Source: Cliona cf. orientalis (taxonomy: Eukaryota > Porifera > Demospongiae > Clionaida > Clionaidae). From it: a stretch of DNA of 64,000 nucleotides. A program made the translations under genes and the position numbers. A model generated the notes under the pieces. That model made no database searches. It saw only the letters and a program-made list of their open reading frames with translations, and was not told where the DNA came from. The DNA is taken from NCBI GenBank assembly GCA_963930775.1, contig OZ005689.1, positions 17,321,775 to 17,385,774 of the forward strand. Direction: 5' to 3'. The number at the start of each line of letters is the position of its first letter. Positions within the stretch are counted from its first letter, which is position 1. Positions 44,701 through 53,059 of this stretch are shown here, one piece after another.

Positions 44701-46917
44701 CTTGCTAGTACACCCCCTTCTGTGCACATTCCCACCACAAAATGTATCATTGGTCCTACACAATGTTGATATAGTAATACTCTGTACACAAGTGGTAGCC
44801 TTACACACCTTTAAAATAAGCTTGAGAAGTTAGCAAACTTAGTACTGTGCAAAATTAATCAAGCTGTAGTCATTATGTACCTTGTCTTTATAAAGTCGGT
44901 TATCATGAATCATAATAATAATAATTATGTTAGAAATTACACACCGTTCACTTACCTTTTTCTCAGTTTGCATAATAATATTATTATTGTGAGGCATATG
45001 ACAATGCAAATCGTCATAACCAATGTCACACTGATGACAATTAGGACAATCTGCAGTACTGCAAAATGAAAGTGTAATATATTGTTAAAATTAAAATGAA
45101 ACCGCAATACACTGCTTAAATTTGGCCATTCTATTAATGTTATGCATGATGAAACTGTCGGATATAGAAACTCACATGGAAAAGGTGCTTTCTTTTGCTG
45201 TAAACATGTAGCTACTGAATTGGAGGTTGTGTCTGCCAGTATCCTTCCTGGTACAGCTAGGCTACCAACTGATCCATCACTCTCGATGTCATACGCCACG
45301 ACTCTGTTGTAACAGGATGTTGGATGTACAGTGTTTATGACCTCATCAATTTCAGTCCCTCTCATAAAGTTCACAGTGATGTTGCCCTGTAGCTCTCCTA
45401 CTAGTACCACCACACATCCTTGAGCTGTGAAGCCAGCCATGAAGTCACACCTGACTCTGAACGCACTCACATCTCTCAATTCCATGGCACTAACCAGTTG
45501 AACATCTGTAGTATCTGCATTTAAGAAACGAATCACACCTTTCCTTTCATTGTAGACTTAGGTGATGTTTGCAAACAAATAGTGGTTTCAGCATTACTCA
45601 CATATTTCCTTGTTATCAGTAGAGGTGGAACCAAAGGCATTCCAGGCCAAAATTCTGATACAATATACTGTGTTCTCTGAGAGATTATTTATGGAGATAT
45701 ATATCTCATTTGGTGGCAAAAATAAGGACAAAGTCTCAGAGGAATTGAAGGAGTTTTGAACCACAACCGTGTAATTGGTGACAGGATAATCTTCACAGTA
45801 GTAGCTTAGAGCGTCCTTTAATGGAGAAAAAAATTATAACTACAATCATTAATATAAAGCAAAATAATTTGCTGATAAAATTTCACCAAGGAGAGTTGAT
45901 GACAGAATTGATGAAATGTGTCTCTTGATGAAATTTCCAGCTACACGTTATTCTGTGTTCATGCATTCTTCCTACCTTACAACAATCTCTTAATCTATTA
46001 TTATTCAGCTGATCAATATTAAATAGTTTGCTTACCTTGATGGATACAACGATAGATACCGTGTTAGCATCTTCGCGCTCAGTGGAGTAGTTGAGGGAAG
46101 ATTCTAGCCCTTGCTTGTTTGGTAGAGAAGGTAGCATTCTGCTAAGCACTACACTGCAACCAACTCCTGCGCTTGCACCAACACTATCAAAGGTGGCAGT
46201 GAAGTTATAGACCTCACAAGGAGGGGCATCATCAGGAGCAGTGAACAAGAAAGAGGACTGCAATGATTCATGCAACTGAGGCTGAGTGTTTTCACTATTC
46301 ACTGTCAGAGTATAGGATTCATTGGCAAATAAAGTGGACTCCATGAAATGTTGATGAGTTGCAGGCCAAGATCCAATCTTATATTCGGTAGAGAAATTGA
46401 TTCTATACAGATTCAAAATAAAATTGACACACTGTATTAAACCAGAGTACTTACCATCAATTATTATAATGGTTTTGTTAATGATCAAAGATAGTCCAAT
46501 GTCAACACATTCGATTACTGTTCCATTCTTTCCCTCAGTATTATTAATGAGCAGCTGAATAGTCTTATCCAAGACATGCTCTATCTCTGGCATCTTAAAG
46601 AAAGTGTGATTGTTAAAATTTTCAATAGTTTTTTCATTGAAAAAGGGTAGAGGCTGAGCATTATGTAGACCCGGAAGAGTGATAAACCACTCAAGATTCT
46701 GACTCTTCTCCCCTGTACAACTCATTATAACTGAAGAGGATCGTGGTAAGTGCGTTGTTGGTTCCCATGGAGTCGATACTGACACTGTTTTGTTATAAAT
46801 TCATTATGCGTGTGCATCTGAGTCATTTGGCTCACCTTGGCAATTTTGCAGTGATCCTTCGTACAGGAATGATAATAGGATTACAACTTGAGCGGCGAGA
46901 GATCTTAACCGATTCAT
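41756..46917 (-). CDS. Ig/FN3 single-pass receptor with ITAM-like tail
   Basis: Nine exons with matching phases: 46836-46917 (signal peptide MNRLRSLAAQVVILLSFLYE), 46455-46784 (Ig-like, MSCTG..LEWFI..VIECVD), 46036-46402 and 45602-45815 (two FN3-like domains, INISWSP, PPCEVYNFTATF, ENTVYCIRILAWNAFG), 45176-45514 (membrane-proximal Cys domain), 44956-45058 (TM LQIVLIVISVTLVMTICIVI), then tail exons 43089-43236, 42446-42568 and 41756-41944. The tail of about 155 residues has no kinase but many Tyr motifs: LYELP, SYNVL, AYAML, VYHVL, NYDTP, IYQEV. In exon 46036-46402 the start reads in a different frame from the rest; one base appears to be missing at about 46321-46325. Likely a surface receptor that signals through SH2 proteins; ligand unknown. 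Confidence 0.75.
43661..43832. mobile_element. 172-bp TA-flanked MITE in receptor intron
   Basis: The ends TACCATAGTGTCCTGGG and CCAAGGACACTATGGTA are inverted. Short repeats of TGGGCACTTA/TGGGTGCTTA lie inside. It sits in the intron between the TM exon and the first tail exon. Confidence 0.7.
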
Positions 46918-47099
46918 GCTAGCTGGCTACTGTGAGGCCGACACATTGCGGATAGATATTCTGGGAAGCACGTGTCCACTATTGTATCAAGTTTACCACA
47001 TCAAAGAGTGTGCAACGCTACAGTGCTGTTACGTAATGCATATGGCTCGCATGCGCAAGCTGCAAGATCAAGAGCAATAATTATAATTATGGGATTGGC
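46918..47099. promoter_or_regulatory. Upstream region of the receptor gene
   Basis: Short space between the receptor start and the MULE transposon. It contains CTCGCATGCGCAAGC at 47047-47061, an imperfect NRF1-like palindrome about 130 bp above the receptor ATG. Confidence 0.35.
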
Positions 47100-47300
47100 T
47101 TTGTTCACTCAATCTCAGGAACGGAAATTGATTACTCCCACAGCCACACCCCCATGATGCCGCGCTTGCGCTAGCGCGCGCACGGCCCGCTGTCGATGTC
47201 ATACATACATACTGTACTACATGTATTATGAGTCATGGTTTCCCGCGTAAAAGCGCCCAGTACTAGTCCCCACATGTACATGTGAATATTATCGTTCATC

Positions 47301-49828
47301 ATGACTGAGCTTCCCAGAGCAGACTACTGCTGCCCCAGTTGGGCAAGCACGTTGAAGCCAGTGGGCGTTCATTATTATGGAGGAGTAGTAGATGATGCAG
47401 AGAGTCTGTTAGAGCTTCACAGTAGGTGCACTATGTGCACTTTTGGCACAAGAACCTCGACAAGTAAGCCACTTCCCAAGGTGTCTGAACCATCAGATGA
47501 GAATCAGCCTCCCAGTACTGCTAAGCAGGCATCCAAGGTGAGTAATATCTCTTCTGTAACTATAGTATGCCCCTTAATACAGGGTAGCTCTGATCTTACA
47601 TGCCTATTAAAACTATCACAACTTTAGACTAGAGTGTTTTGGAATCATTCAATTGAAGGGCAAAATGTAACATTCAATGGTGTCCCCTTCATTGTTTCAA
47701 CAACAAGAAAACAACACTGCCAGTTTGGTAAACTCTACTTTAAGGAGCGAACTGCTTCATCAGGACGGACACGTCTTCAAGGCACACGCAAGATAGGCTG
47801 CCCAGCACATGTTCACGTACACGAGCTGACACTCTTTCCCTCGTTTGCTGTTTCCGAAGCCTGTACACTTGGATCTAGAAAGCTGAAGGAAACAAAGGCA
47901 AGAAAAATCAATGAGTTGAAGGAGTCACTTGCAGCAGGGAAGAAAGTAGACACAGAAACAAAATATTTTGTTCTTCTACCCACCAAAGAAGCCCACGGAA
48001 GTTACCACCCAACCTCGGGTCCTGCTGGATTTGCCCAAAGAGTTCATCCCAAAATAATTGAGAAAATTAATGTGCTTGTGGGAGAGGGAATAACCGAAGT
48101 TGAAGAAGTCAAACGTGCTCTCAGACATTATGTACTACATATCTTATTTCCAGACCCCAATAATCGTCCTGATGAGACAAATAGGGCTTACTATCCAACA
48201 AAAACAGACATAAAAAATCATGTCTACTCGGCAAAGCGTGCACAAGAGTTGTCTAAGCTGGACCAAGACAACTTAAGCTTGAAGATTGAGCAATGGAAGG
48301 GAGAAAACCCAACAACAAGGTTTCATTATCGACCTTATAAGGAAATAAAACAAGAATACAGTGATTGTACCTTTGTTAAAGCAGATGATCAGCAGGCAGC
48401 ATTTTCACAAACTTTGCTTTACGTCCATCAGGAGCAGTGGCAGCAGCAACTATTAAGGAGATACGGAAATACAATTGTTCTCATAGATGCCACCTACAAA
48501 ACAACAAAGTATGAGCTACCTATATTTTTTGTGACCGTTAAAACAAATGTTGGCTATACACCTATAGCAGAATTTGTAGTTCAATCTGAAACAGGTGATA
48601 AGATCGCAGAGGCACTAAAGGTTTTAGCTAGCTGGAATCCAGAATGGAATCCTCCCTATTTCATGACTGATTACTCTGATGCAGAGATATCCGCCATCGA
48701 GTCTGTATTTCCACAATGCAAGGTGTATTTGTGTGATTTCCACCGTGAACAGTCTGGGAGCGGTGGATCAAGGATAAGAAGCATGGGCTCTCACCTACAA
48801 ATGGAGAAATCCTCCTTGGACTCCTCCGCGCCTGCGCTTGGGCATCACCAGGATCAGATGGTTCACCAGTTGGTTGTCACTTCCAGCAGGCAGTAGATAA
48901 GCTGCAGAAAACAAATATTTGGACAGGAAATCAACAAGTAAGGGATTGGTTGAATGCTAAGTGGCTACCCTTTTCAGAGGTGAGGAATTTGTTCATGTGT
49001 GCACTAAAAGTGTGCTATATTTAGAATATTATTGCATACTAATGTATTATACAACCTGTATGTGGTTATGTATTCCATCCCACAATACACATACAGTACA
49101 TGTACCCTCATTATATCTACACACACAAAATTGCACACATAGAGATGGGCAAGGGCTTTTCGAGACAACGACTATCATGCTGCTGTCAATACGAATAATG
49201 GCACCGAAGCTCTCAATAAAGTTTTGAAATACAATTATCTACCAAGGAAAAAGAATATAACACTATCAGCAGTGTGTACAATAATCATTGAATCATTTCT
49301 GCCTGATGCCCACCAGAGTACCTGTGCTTAAATTACATGCAGTTGAGCCAGTACAGATCTTATAAGTCTCATGTTCCAGACTACCTTCATGACAAACCAA
49401 AAAGTACTATAGTTCACTGTCTTGAAAGGAAGTCCAAAGCTCTCAAGTACACAAATGAGGATGTTACTCGGCTAGAAAATCAAGAAGGTATCTTTACAGT
49501 TAAAGGATCTAAGGATAAGATACACACAGTGAGCTTTGGAGTCGAAGCAGAGAATGGAATGCCTTCGTGTACTTGTGCAGATTGGCAGCAATGGCATATA
49601 CCATGTAAACACTTTTTTGCAGTATTTAATACTCAAGATGGATGGACATGGAATAGATTTCATCCAAACTACCTCAAAAGTCCCTACCTCAGCACTGACT
49701 CAGTGTCCCTAAACAACTACTTCAATGATGACACCAGTTGCCCAACAGAAGGCATTGAACAATCAAGCTTGATACAAAGCCCTACACCATCAGGCCAAGG
49801 TGAACCATCTGAACTTCCAAAACGCAAG
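47301..49828 (+). pseudogene. MULE transposase with SWIM finger, two frameshifts
   Basis: Exon 1 (47301-47537) encodes an N-terminal Cys/His-rich segment (YCCPSW...SRCTMCTFGT). Exon 2 (47628-48979) holds the MULE core: first Asp in VLIDATYKTTKYELPIFF, second in FMTDYSDAEIS, then the CDFHREQ..WERW signature. Exon 3 (49143-49828) holds the third acidic residue (NTNNGTEALNKVL) and a SWIM zinc finger (CTCADWQQWHIPCKH). Junctions are phase 0. One base is missing at about 48753, between HREQ and WERW, and one at about 49318, before YLCLNYMQLSQYRS. In the family this protein cuts and joins element ends; here it cannot be made whole unless these are assembly errors. Confidence 0.85.
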
Positions 49829-50134
49829 GTACATGTACATGTATTTTGTTACTAAAGTTAATAAATCTCAGGATTCTCCCCGGAAAAATTTGAAGGCATA
49901 GTATGTGATCATGGTTTGAGTGGAGATTGTGACCACATAAAAATATATAATGCAGGGGGGACTATACTGACAGGGTTGGAGAAAGCACTAATCCACACAC
50001 CACATACATGTACACTATCTGTTCCCTATTTTGTACACAGAATCCATACACATACATGTACATGTACATGTACAGGTACAGGTAATAATTATAAACACTG
50101 TACAGTGTACATTGTAGTTTTCATTTTCTCATAG

Positions 50135-50804
50135 ACATTTATGACATCACTAAAGCAAAAAAGTGAACACGTAAGGACAAGCTTGAAAGTGCTAGAAACA
50201 CTCACCTACAACTGTACAAGTCCGAAAGAGCTGGAAAAGCTGGCATCAAAGCTGGATTCCCTCGTAGCAGACTTTCGTACTGTCCTACCAAAAACAGAGG
50301 GCTTGATTCTTCGACCTCAGGCTCGTCTTGCTGCAAGAAAGAGGGCAGCAAAGGTCAAACACAAGTATCTTAATCTCACCATGAGATTAAAGCGTGGACG
50401 CACAAGGGCTGATTGGAGGTACCGAAACAGAGTAGGCCAAAGAGCAGAGTCTTTCAGGAAGGTGTGTTTACATATACATGTACATAATAATTATAAGTAA
50501 GTTCACAATGCCATAATGCTCTCAGAGAGCAGAGAGAGTTTACGAGAGTACGGAAGATAAGGCTCCCCAAGAAGAATTCATTTCAGAGGGTCCAGTTGGT
50601 AACATGATAAGGTCACTGAGACAGGTATGTGATATGCAAACACTATTGTACATAATTATTATGTGAACCAAATACAATGTACCAAATACTATGTACCATT
50701 CTTCCAAACAGGCAAAAGAAGGCTTTTTAAACATACGTTGTGGAGACGGAAAAAACACAAGTGAAAATGTGTGCACACACCATGATGAGGGACACTATCA
50801 AAAG
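50135..50804 (+). CDS. Linker exons of the MULE protein
   Basis: Three exons in matching phase 0: 50135-50461 (a charged helical region, SLKVLETLTYNCTSPKELEK..., with a basic RxRR-rich end), 50526-50624 (RAERVYESTEDKAPQEEF...) and 50712-50804 (AKEGFLNIRCGDGKN...). A tiny exon may lie near 49871-49890, but its splice to 50135 would give a stop, so that link is unsettled. No domain recognised. Confidence 0.55.
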
Positions 50805-50935
50805 GTTATGTAATAATAATTATTATACATTACTGCTGACTCAAGTGACCTCTTGCTCATACAATGTACATGTACATGTACATCACTCACTCAGACAGAC
50901 AAATACAAGATATTAGTATAATGATTAACACATAG

Positions 50936-51089
50936 GTCCTAAAGAGGAGAAAGAGATGCTACAAGTGTTCTGGATGTACAAGAGATGACTGTGGGTCATG
51001 TGAGGCATGCAAGGACATGCGCAAATTTGGAGGTAGTGGACGGAAAAAACAGTGTTGCCGATATAGAAAATGCACTTCTTTGGGACAAG
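50936..51089 (+). CDS. CXXC-type zinc finger exon in the MULE protein
   Basis: The exon (CACATAG acceptor, phase-1 donor CAAG/GTATA) encodes RRKRCYKCSGCTRDDCGSCE followed by ACKDMRKFGGSGRKKQCCRY and RKC. The eight Cys in C-x2-C-x2-C-x4-C-x2-C-x2-C order, the KDMxKFGG element and the terminal KQxC-x4-C match the CXXC zinc finger found in DNMT1, MLL, CFP1 and similar proteins. That domain binds unmethylated CpG, with the loop around KFGG-KQ touching DNA. Placed in a transposase, it could bias insertion toward CpG-rich unmethylated DNA; that is inference. The exon itself is intact. Confidence 0.85.
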
Positions 51090-51157
51090 GTATATACAAA
51101 GGAATATTCATGTGCCAATATGTCCATAATACTAAATACCTCTCTTCTGTCCTCTAG

Positions 51158-52180
51158 CATCCATCTCTAGTTTGACAGCCAAAACACATACTAATTCAGA
51201 TCAAACGACTTACACAGCCAAGGTAACAATACAGGATAAATCTAGCACAACCAATGATCCTATTACATTTCTGGCATATCATGGAAGAAAGCTTGATTCA
51301 GTTCTTGGCGATGGAAACTGTATGTTTCGGTCACTTGCTAAGCAGTTGTCAGGTGATTCAGACAAACACGGCCAACTAAGGGACAAATTGTGTGAATTTA
51401 TTTTTTTAAATGGGGAGTTACTGAAGGGGTGGCTTAATGGTGGAGTTATTCTTGATGAACACTTACGATCCATCTGCAAAACCAACACATTTGGAACTCA
51501 GTTGGAACTAAAAGCAGCTTCAACAATGGGCTTTTCCACTTTATAAGCAAACACCCCCTATTGAGGAGCAATTTGTGAAATGACCCCCCAAGAACTAATT
51601 AACTCGTTTTGCCCCCTAAGAATAATTAATTTGGACAGTTGAACCCCCTAGGTTCAATTAAATTTGTCTGAAATACCCTCTGGAAATTAATAAGTGGTTG
51701 CTTGACCCCTCTGGAATCTACTTTTTAGTAGAAAGTACCCCACAAGAGTAATTAAAATCGCCAAAAGAGCCCCATAAGAATCAATTAAATTGCCAAAAGG
51801 ACCCTCAAGAAACTCACAAAAAAAGCCCCCTCAGGATATAATTATCACTCCTAAATGGGGGGTGTATGCCTATTAAATGGAAGAGCCCAATGTTCAATCT
51901 CGATATCTACGTTGCCACAAATTCCCTGCTACGCAATAGTCACTACATCTGGACAAAAATCTCACCAATCAACTCTATTTCTTCATGCACTTTCAGTGAC
52001 AGGGAATGGCCTAGTAAATTTAATTCTGAACAAAAGAGGTGGTTGGAAATCTGTCACCAAAACGGCTGTCACTATGACAGCATAAGGCCTATCCTCCTTG
52101 GAAACAGAGTTTCAGTGGTACCTCCACCTCTCAGGCAAGGGGAGAGTGCCCTTATCCCTTTGGACTTACTAACAGATTGA
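51158..52180 (+). pseudogene. OTU-like cysteine protease exon, split by insertion
   Basis: Joined in frame (phase 1) to the CXXC exon. The first part carries the OTU active-site motif LGDGNCMFRSLAKQL with Asp and Cys. The second part, after the insertion at 51529-51887, continues FNLDIYVATNS... and has the catalytic His in CHQNGCHYDSI. Removing the insertion and one 5-bp duplication restores a single continuous frame (...KAAST-M-FNLDIYV...). OTU proteins are deubiquitinating cysteine proteases. In a transposon it could protect the transposase or act on host chromatin; neither can be shown here. Confidence 0.85.
51529..51887. mobile_element. 359-bp TIR element inside the OTU exon, 5-bp TSD
   Basis: The ends GGCTTTTCCACTTTATAAGC and its inverted counterpart (...TTAAATGGAAGAGCC) pair over about 33 bp. 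CAATG is duplicated at 51524-51528 and 51888-51892. The interior is about nine degenerate units of roughly 30 bp beginning CCCCCTAAGAATAATTAA, a tandem structure inside a MITE. Confidence 0.85.
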
Positions 52181-52593
52181 TGATTAGGTCCTCTTGTCGA
52201 TCTTTCATGTTTTCCGAGTTCTCAGCTCTGATTTCCGTTGTATTGATGCATAATATAAATTGTGTGTACCTTGCACTCTTAGTGTGGCAAGCGCGCGGCG
52301 CCGGCGCGGCCCGGGCGCGATCACGTGACAAAAATTTATTTCCGTTCCTGAGATCGAGTGAACAAAGGTGTAGGCTACCACCCTGAGCTGATTCGCATAA
52401 CCTTGCATGGACAGTTACTGCCTCGTGCATGATGGGTCTAGTAGGACTTTGAACACTTGTCTATAGTGACAGAGTTCTTCCACTCACTCTGATTCAGCAA
52501 TACTCTTCATATGCAAGCTATTATGTATCATGCAAGCATTGGAATGTGGTCCTTCCAGGCTGGGTCTGCACATGCAAGGATGGATGTCACTCT

Positions 52594-52925
52594 CAGTGGC
52601 GGATTTAGGGGGGTTTTGGAGGTTTCGACAGAACCCCCTTTGGGCTGCACCTAGTTGCAAGAAGTACTGATGATAGGCTAACTGGAACCCCCCTCTCAGG
52701 CTACAGAACTAAGAAAACTGCTGCTATGGCTCACCTTAGCATGCTTTAGCAGAAAATTCGTTCAAAATCCATCGATTGGACTGGTAGGGGCTGGTAGTTG
52801 TTCTGAAAACGATCGAAAATGGGCGTGGTTTAGACGAAAGTGGGCGTGGCTTCTAAAAATTTCGCGCGCTTTGCGCGCAAGAATAGAACAGAACCCCCCT
52901 TCAACAAATCCTAGATCCGCCACTG
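52594..52925. mobile_element. 332-bp MITE, CAGTGGCGG termini, 5-bp TSD
   Basis: Ends CAGTGGCGGATTTAGG and CTAGATCCGCCACTG; exact ACTCT duplication at 52589-52593 and 52926-52930. The internal GCGCGCTTTGCGCGC-type block is shared with 4957-5267. Confidence 0.75.
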
Positions 52926-53059
52926 ACTCTGATGCTATCCAGCCCAGTGACTTATTCACCATTTTCCCAGTAATTATTAGTATGGTTGAAATTACTCGTG
53001 TGTTTAGACTATGCAGGTCCTACAGATTTTAGTATAAAAAAGAGATAAATTCCTAGAGT

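Follow-up and report, generated by a model that had tools for sequence, protein, structure and literature searches.

A window of 64,000 nucleotides from the sponge Cliona cf. orientalis (contig OZ005689.1, here C1, positions 17321775-17385774, in an assembly totalling 216.8 Mb) carries at ~47091-52367, on the + strand, a decayed copy of a Mutator-like element (MULE) that is almost certainly a Mutator-superfamily transposon. The coding parts of this copy are, in order, an ALS2CR8/CARF-type region, the MULE DDE core, a SWIM finger, a CXXC finger and an OTU peptidase. Judged by its reading frames, the window copy is a dead DNA transposon; yet the architecture that joins transposase, CXXC and OTU is, as related copies show, real. 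The prediction for intact-looking relatives in this genome is a single long transposase consisting of an exon-1 N-terminus, the ALS2CR8-like region, the MULE DDE core, SWIM, a basic region, CXXC and OTU, and we regard this explanation, taken as a whole, as fairly probable.

Bounded copies and recurrence of the architecture

Terminal inverted repeats are present in the window copy and in three further copies, termed C11, C17 and C10. In the window the repeats at 47099-47133 and 52333-52367 (35 nt) have 91% complementarity, and the left end, when set against C11, reaches further out, to GGGATT at 47091. The other three represent three divergent families. C11:5556772-5562028 is an element of 5257 bp with a 9-bp duplication (TGACATAAT) at both sides, the C17 element measures 4421 bp and is flanked by a 10-bp duplication (TTGTCAAAAA), and C10:2644525-2649266 measures 4742 bp and likewise has a 10-bp duplication at both sides (GTAGCTATAC); a target-site duplication of 8-11 bp is expected of a MULE. 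In each of them the repeats and the exact 9-10 bp duplication enclose all the parts, that is the exon-1 region, the ALS2CR8-MULE exon, the DDE/SWIM exon, CXXC and OTU. The sequence-only reading of the window had assigned CXXC and OTU to the transposon and had proposed looking for other full-length copies between repeats that keep all four domains. Such copies were found in C11, C17 and C10, and 13 loci have both domains together with the transposase; since the bounded copies span three families, CXXC and OTU are part of the transposon and not of a neighbouring host gene. The MULE domain itself is recognised by Pfam at 6.6e-13 in C11 and 4.8e-13 in C17 (3.1e-13 in the window), and the Pfam results for pieces of C17 and C10 also speak for the transposon reading.

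An exon-by-exon gene model was built for C11 only. Its six exons are bounded by GT-AG and agree in phase, and together they give a predicted protein of 1316 aa with DATY at position 438, CDFH at 520, the SWIM motif at 746, CXXC at 1019, DGNC at 1159 and HYDS at 1287. Pfam finds ALS2CR8 (2e-30), MULE (7e-13), CXXC (3e-11) and OTU (2.5e-10) in this protein. For exons 2-6 the alignment with the C2 copy is gap-free and shows 98.8-100% identity; exon 1 is interrupted there. It may be noted that the single phase-compatible exon chain which the sequence-only reading had described for the window is not literally true of that copy, because of two frame breaks and an insertion, and is intact in the C11 model. 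The first break lies in the transposase exon near 48744-48755 and the second in the DDE-Glu/SWIM exon, before the SWIM part, near 49310-49330; in C11 and C17 each of these stretches reads through in one open frame. An insertion of 361 bp splits the OTU exon, so that DGNC and HYDSI are interrupted in the window copy. The proposed order of MULE, SWIM, CXXC and OTU on the + strand was borne out by Pfam on four window pieces, 47628-48743, 49307-49855 (SWIM), 50936-51157 (zf-CXXC) and 51136-51546 (OTU), and KFGG, DGNC and HYDSI stand in the translations. Pfam matches nothing in the piece 51842-52180, but by tblastn this piece resembles the OTU C-terminus of other copies.

The genome-wide match counts for transposase, CXXC and OTU are lower bounds. 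There are at least 81 transposase matches forming 42 clusters, at least 34 CXXC places and at least 26 OTU matches. A MULE cluster lies upstream on the same strand, at a distance of 0.3-5.4 kb, at 22 of the 34 CXXC places, against ~0.03 such co-locations expected by chance, and an opposite-strand MULE cluster within 10 kb was seen at none of the 34. OTU occurs within 3 kb downstream at 17 of the 34 places, and an upstream MULE together with OTU at 13; tblastn also detected OTU fragments at a further three of the 22, namely C1:22959446, C17:3165318 and C1:22924284. As a separate observation, 24 of the 42 MULE clusters and 20 of the 34 CXXC places lie on C1, a contig with 17% of the assembly, whereas its share of two families of miniature inverted-repeat transposable elements (MITEs) is 4 and 9 of 40 scored copies each (Fisher p = 6e-6 and 0.002). 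The contig has 2.5 times the length of C2 and is perhaps an unusual chromosome.

Between the members of several locus pairs, identity is 90-99% across 0.8-5 kb, which points to recent movement in several families. The copy at C2:7.31 Mb is 99% identical to C11 and has a young MITE sitting in its right end; no duplication was seen around it, nor any target-site duplication around the window copy. When the left end of the window copy was used as a DNA query across the genome, only the window was returned. The C11-type end pattern was found at 10 places with at most 2 mismatches, as against 2 for a backwards control.

CXXC finger, OTU peptidase and CpG content

Among solved chains the C11 CXXC is closest to that of KMT2B (3e-14) and then KMT2A, with which it shares KKQCC; those fingers are located in histone methyltransferases, not in transposases. 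All 8 cysteines of CXXC, the DGNC of OTU and several other residues are invariant in the 13 aligned CXXC-OTU sequences, and the K-F/Y-x-G motif is also found in 13 of 13. The OTU histidine motif H-Y/F-D is present in 10 of the 13, that is in all those whose C-terminus is present. CXXC fingers with KKQ-type contacts, the role of which is known from KMT2A, bind unmethylated CpG, and KKQ is kept in both the window and C11 fingers. The CXXC would probably read CpG. The OTU part is by sequence nearest to OTUD5 (DUBA; 8e-8), OTUD3 and OTUD1. By fold, using an AlphaFold2 model of the relative P0013, the best match is OTUD3 (4bou, E 8e-10, template-modelling score 0.85 by target length). In this model the predicted local distance difference test (pLDDT) is mostly >80 for the OTU part and ~50 or lower for the CXXC part. 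OTUD5, OTUD3 and OTUD1, the closest deubiquitinases by sequence and fold, differ in being host enzymes and have 20-27% identity in the fold alignments. OTU enzymes cleave ubiquitin, and the OTU of the element would rather probably be an active deubiquitinase.

For constraint, nonsynonymous (dN) and synonymous (dS) divergence was estimated. OTU of the window versus C17 gave dN 0.56 and dS 2.5, and CXXC of the window versus C10 gave dN 0.33 and dS 1.55 over 34 codons, dS being too high for an estimate in the remaining window CXXC comparisons. Where estimable, and at high dS, dN/dS is ~0.2. In recent pairs, summed by hand with the distant pair G2 excluded, OTU has 8 synonymous and 4 nonsynonymous changes over four pairs, and 0 and 4 in a fifth pair of 32 codons.

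CpG content was compared next as observed/expected ratio (o/e). In all four elements (window, C11, C17 and C10) both 200-bp ends have CpG o/e of 0.70-1.45 versus 0.34-0.42 for the interiors, and four further 3′ ends have 0.66-1.15 versus 0.31-0.44 in the preceding 1 kb. The flanks of 12 insertion sites (17 flanks of at most 600 bp, a single flank at 7 of the 12) have a mean of 0.92 and a median of 0.97, as compared with a mean of 0.49 and a median of 0.44 for 20 genomic points taken at round-number positions fixed beforehand. Insertions are therefore richer (one-sided Mann-Whitney p = 7e-5), except that the flanks of the window copy (0.59) and of a further insertion (0.46) lie close to background. 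All CpG p values are nominal; copies of the same family share history, their sites being independent. Two MITE controls count against attributing this difference to the element. Flanks of a 322-bp MITE, with the copy inside the C2 element dropped, average 0.72 (11 sites), from which the element insertions differ at p = 0.058, and this MITE is itself CpG-richer than the genomic points (p 0.014). A second MITE has a mean of 0.66 over 10 single flanks, with p = 0.04 for insertions versus MITE and 0.07 for MITE versus genomic points. Since MITE flanks are also CpG-rich, part of the bias is common to other transposons, and any element-specific excess is at most modest. The earlier proposal that CXXC steers insertion to unmethylated CpG is thus consistent with the CpG-richer sites and weakened by the high MITE values; steered targeting is plausible. 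Apart from its use here, the 322-bp MITE (C2:7307181-7307503) is very young, with 68-bp inverted ends (TAGTCTCGTCCC); 40 of its 645 candidates were scored, nearly all being 97-100% identical, and 9-bp duplications are visible in the flanks.

DDE enzymes of MULEs work by cut-and-paste. In the mechanism we propose, the DDE core would cut and paste the element and so leave the 9-10 bp duplications. The CXXC, closest to the KMT2A/B fingers, would bind unmethylated CpG and hold the transposase at unmethylated CpG-rich DNA, either at target sites or at the CpG-rich ends of the element, the evidence favouring neither; mobilisation would thereby be favoured where methylation is absent. The OTU may shield the transposition complex or edit ubiquitin in its surroundings, by removing it from the transposase, from nearby chromatin or from repair proteins. 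For tethering as such, at targets or own ends, we put the chances as even. The narrower alternative is that CXXC recognises only the unmethylated CpG-rich ends of the element, as an escape sensor and without a part in target choice. It would account for ends that are CpG-rich over CpG-poor interiors in four of four elements and for the same trend at four more 3′ ends, but the left end may just hold a promoter, terminal CpG may have other causes, and the comparison covers CXXC-bearing elements only; we consider it conceivable though somewhat doubtful.

Alternative gene structures and variant tails

The account of one long transposase has to be weighed against several points. The window copy itself is broken by its two frame breaks and the 361-bp insertion. 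The joined message is a prediction of the C11 gene model, and the functions of the domains are taken from sequence. SWIM is above the Pfam cut-off in the window and in C2:277194 but below it in C11 (17.8 vs 19.6) and is unlisted for C17; in MULEs generally this finger is common, not universal. CXXC was detected in 22 of the 42 MULE clusters and went undetected in the other 20, a number of which match weakly or in fragments. In 5 of the 13 aligned CXXC sequences K stands where KKQ has its Q, so that CpG reading may differ in those fingers, and the eight recent CXXC pairs hold 7 synonymous and 12 nonsynonymous changes, giving no evidence of constraint.

Alternatively the element might encode a SWIM-type MULE transposase and, under a second promoter, a distinct CXXC-OTU accessory protein, much as MuDR carries mudrA and mudrB. 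Exon 3 of C11 reaches a stop when its donor goes unused, and both CXXC and OTU are found by precomputed Pfam in 5 of the 83 protein-database matches (P0013, P0018, P0019, P0025 and P0026), which are proteins of 234-350 aa without a transposase. These short proteins may however be pieces of a longer gene, and all six C11 exons phase-join into a single frame, so that we think two proteins unlikely. One of the five, P0018, is from Dysidea avara (source named by NCBI) and has ahead of CXXC a FAPAQKNE segment in common with the C6 locus.

The tail behind the transposase is variable. A sister MULE family (C2:277194-280328 and C1:34369996-34373130) has SWIM, CXXC and then Ulp1 (Peptidase_C48) replacing OTU; Pfam gives SWIM 4e-7, CXXC 4e-11 and Ulp1 4e-6 at the C2:277194 locus, and the frames at C1:34369996 are similar. 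A tree of the SWIM region, meant to time the swap between OTU and Ulp1, has only 3 of 15 inner branches starred. No OTU match occurs in the 1.5 kb downstream of CXXC at C1:21781962, C2:2052138 and C1:15950004, the downstream frames having been read at the first and third of these. At C1:264894 a CXXC-OTU lies behind a distant transposase with PF21056 (2e-9), which places the CXXC-OTU tail behind two kinds of MULE-like transposase. Directly downstream of this CXXC-OTU, at C1:266500-267187, is a frame (GAGMGKTCL...) that we read as NACHT/NLR-like. Short repeats (~1.5-2.3 kb) that carry an OTU exon and have inverted ends GGTTCAGGTTAGG were seen at C1:16696282, C3:11208094, C3:10375842 and C14:8256189, two of which have readable 9-bp duplications (TTATGCTAA and TAATAAAAA); the stretches of them that were examined gave no match to CXXC or transposase. 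Their flanks have CpG o/e 0.45-1.10 over 600 bp, with 1.30 in one 35-bp flank, and they make an unclean control for insertion sites because the CXXC transposase may move them.

The duplications at these short repeats make movement in trans likely without these domains in cis, as would be the case if CXXC and OTU were passenger domains with no role in transposition. The lack of constraint on CXXC in recent pairs and the families in which no peptidase was found in the stretch examined point the same way. Yet the zinc and catalytic residues are kept among sequences only 31-42% identical to C11, dN/dS is low where estimable (at high dS), and the sister family swaps OTU for Ulp1 while keeping CXXC, all of which leaves the passenger explanation improbable. 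That the exons for CXXC and OTU form a host gene beside, or captured by, one unrelated transposase copy is scarcely credible: both are common host domains and some CXXC places look host-gene-like (a 644-aa frame at C11:5744884 and a DNMT1-like finger at C9:9853077, the names being readings of the frames), but identical order and strand at 13 loci, three bounded families and the excess of co-locations over chance oppose it, and we rejected it as the bounded C11, C17 and C10 copies enclose both domains, barring assembly error.

Features of the window copy and known systems

The features of the window copy are collected in the table; IDATYK/TDYSDAE/CDFH and NTNNGTEALNK are what we take to be the catalytic motifs.

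Features of the decayed MULE copy, in window coordinates
Feature	Position	Strand	Evidence
Left terminal inverted repeat (GGGATTGGCTTTGTTCACTC...)	47091..47133	+	Repeat pair 47099-47133; edge from C11 comparison
Exon 1, N-terminal region (..YYGGVVDDAESLLELH..CTFGTR..)	47304..47540	+	tblastn: C17, C10, C11 and C2:11456482 copies
ALS2CR8-like region and MULE DDE core (IDATYK, TDYSDAE, CDFH)	47628..48743	+	Pfam ALS2CR8 1.1e-33, MULE 3.1e-13
Remainder of transposase exon, shifted frame	48744..48979	+	Frames differ in window; one open frame in C11, C17; same frame in C10
Exon with third catalytic motif (NTNNGTEALNK), ending in frame break	49140..49330	+	tblastn 60-70% identity: C11, C17, C10
SWIM zinc finger (CTCADW..CKH)	49307..49834	+	Pfam SWIM 2.4e-5, 24.2 bits vs cut-off 19.6
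Lysine/arginine-rich exon, perhaps coiled	50135..50461	+	57.8% identity to C10, 54% to C17
CXXC zinc finger (8 Cys, KFGG, RKKQCC)	50936..51092	+	Pfam zf-CXXC 1.1e-12; 8 Cys invariant in 13 aligned relatives
OTU peptidase, first part (DGNC)	51139..51527	+	Pfam OTU 4.1e-8
MITE-like insertion of 361 bp in OTU exon	51528..51888		AAT at both sides
OTU peptidase, last part (HYDSI)	51889..52180	+	tblastn 31-35%: C10, C11, C17 and C1:264894 loci
Right terminal inverted repeat	52333..52367	-	Pairs with left repeat

To the left of the element a divergent minus-strand frame starts with an ATG at 46917 and has a signal-peptide-like first exon. The left end of the element is ~170 bp upstream of this ATG, which probably places the copy in a promoter region. 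On the other side, window positions 52594-52930 belong to an abundant 330-bp MITE family present on many contigs (of 1034 candidates 40 were scored; leaving aside the window copy, these are 87-96% identical).

With known animal MULEs the element shares the MULE DDE core, SWIM, terminal inverted repeats and 9-10 bp duplications. It differs in its CXXC, which was not reported on MULEs in the literature searched, and in having OTU where MULEs of hydra, lancelet and plants are reported, in the accessible part of one study, to have Ulp1 (PMC2836005). The database protein P0003, an ALS2CR8-MULE, has the same N-terminal and DDE architecture with a C-terminal isopeptidase and a weak PHD-like finger, but the isopeptidase is Ulp1, not OTU, and PHD stands where the element has CXXC; its PHD and SWIM are below the Pfam cut-offs. 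Ginger1 is comparable in being a DNA transposase with C-terminal OTU or Ulp1, one having PHD, and different in being an integrase-type transposase with GPY/F; in the portion of that source available, MULE core, SWIM and CXXC go unmentioned for it, and OTU is also reported in Helitrons (PMC2836005). No integrase (rve) family is among the Pfam matches of the window pieces or of C11, the GPY/F motif not having been searched for. Mutator insertions in placozoan promoters are described in a chromatin-loop paper (Nature 2025), the accessible text of which does not mention CXXC (PMC12221973), and the accessible text of 'Transposon-derived transcription factors across metazoans' mentions neither CXXC nor OTU (PMC10027918). 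A MULE with CXXC was not found in the literature searched, which was partly accessible and had most subscription journals outside its scope; Repbase may have members. Within that literature, what is new is CXXC on a MULE transposase, and the earlier belief that the whole combination was undescribed holds to this extent only, as OTU or Ulp1 on DNA transposases such as Ginger1 and Ulp1 on MULEs are already known (PMC2836005).

Taken at its widest, the architecture might represent a modular tail of reader and isopeptidase (CXXC with OTU or Ulp1) on sponge MULEs, placed behind two transposase kinds, that ties transposition to DNA methylation. Such a tail would act at unmethylated CpG-rich ends and targets, remove ubiquitin there and sense a lapse of the host methylation defence; we offer this as a tentative proposal that may well not hold in full. 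If it is true, a transposase with a finger for unmethylated CpG would tie the behaviour of a transposon directly, at the molecular level, to the DNA methylation of its host, and the old question of how methylation governs animal transposition and target choice would become a test of one domain. The exchange of Ulp1 for OTU beside a constant CXXC, together with the Ginger1 parallel, suggests that reversing ubiquitin or SUMO marks may be a repeated need of cut-and-paste transposition.

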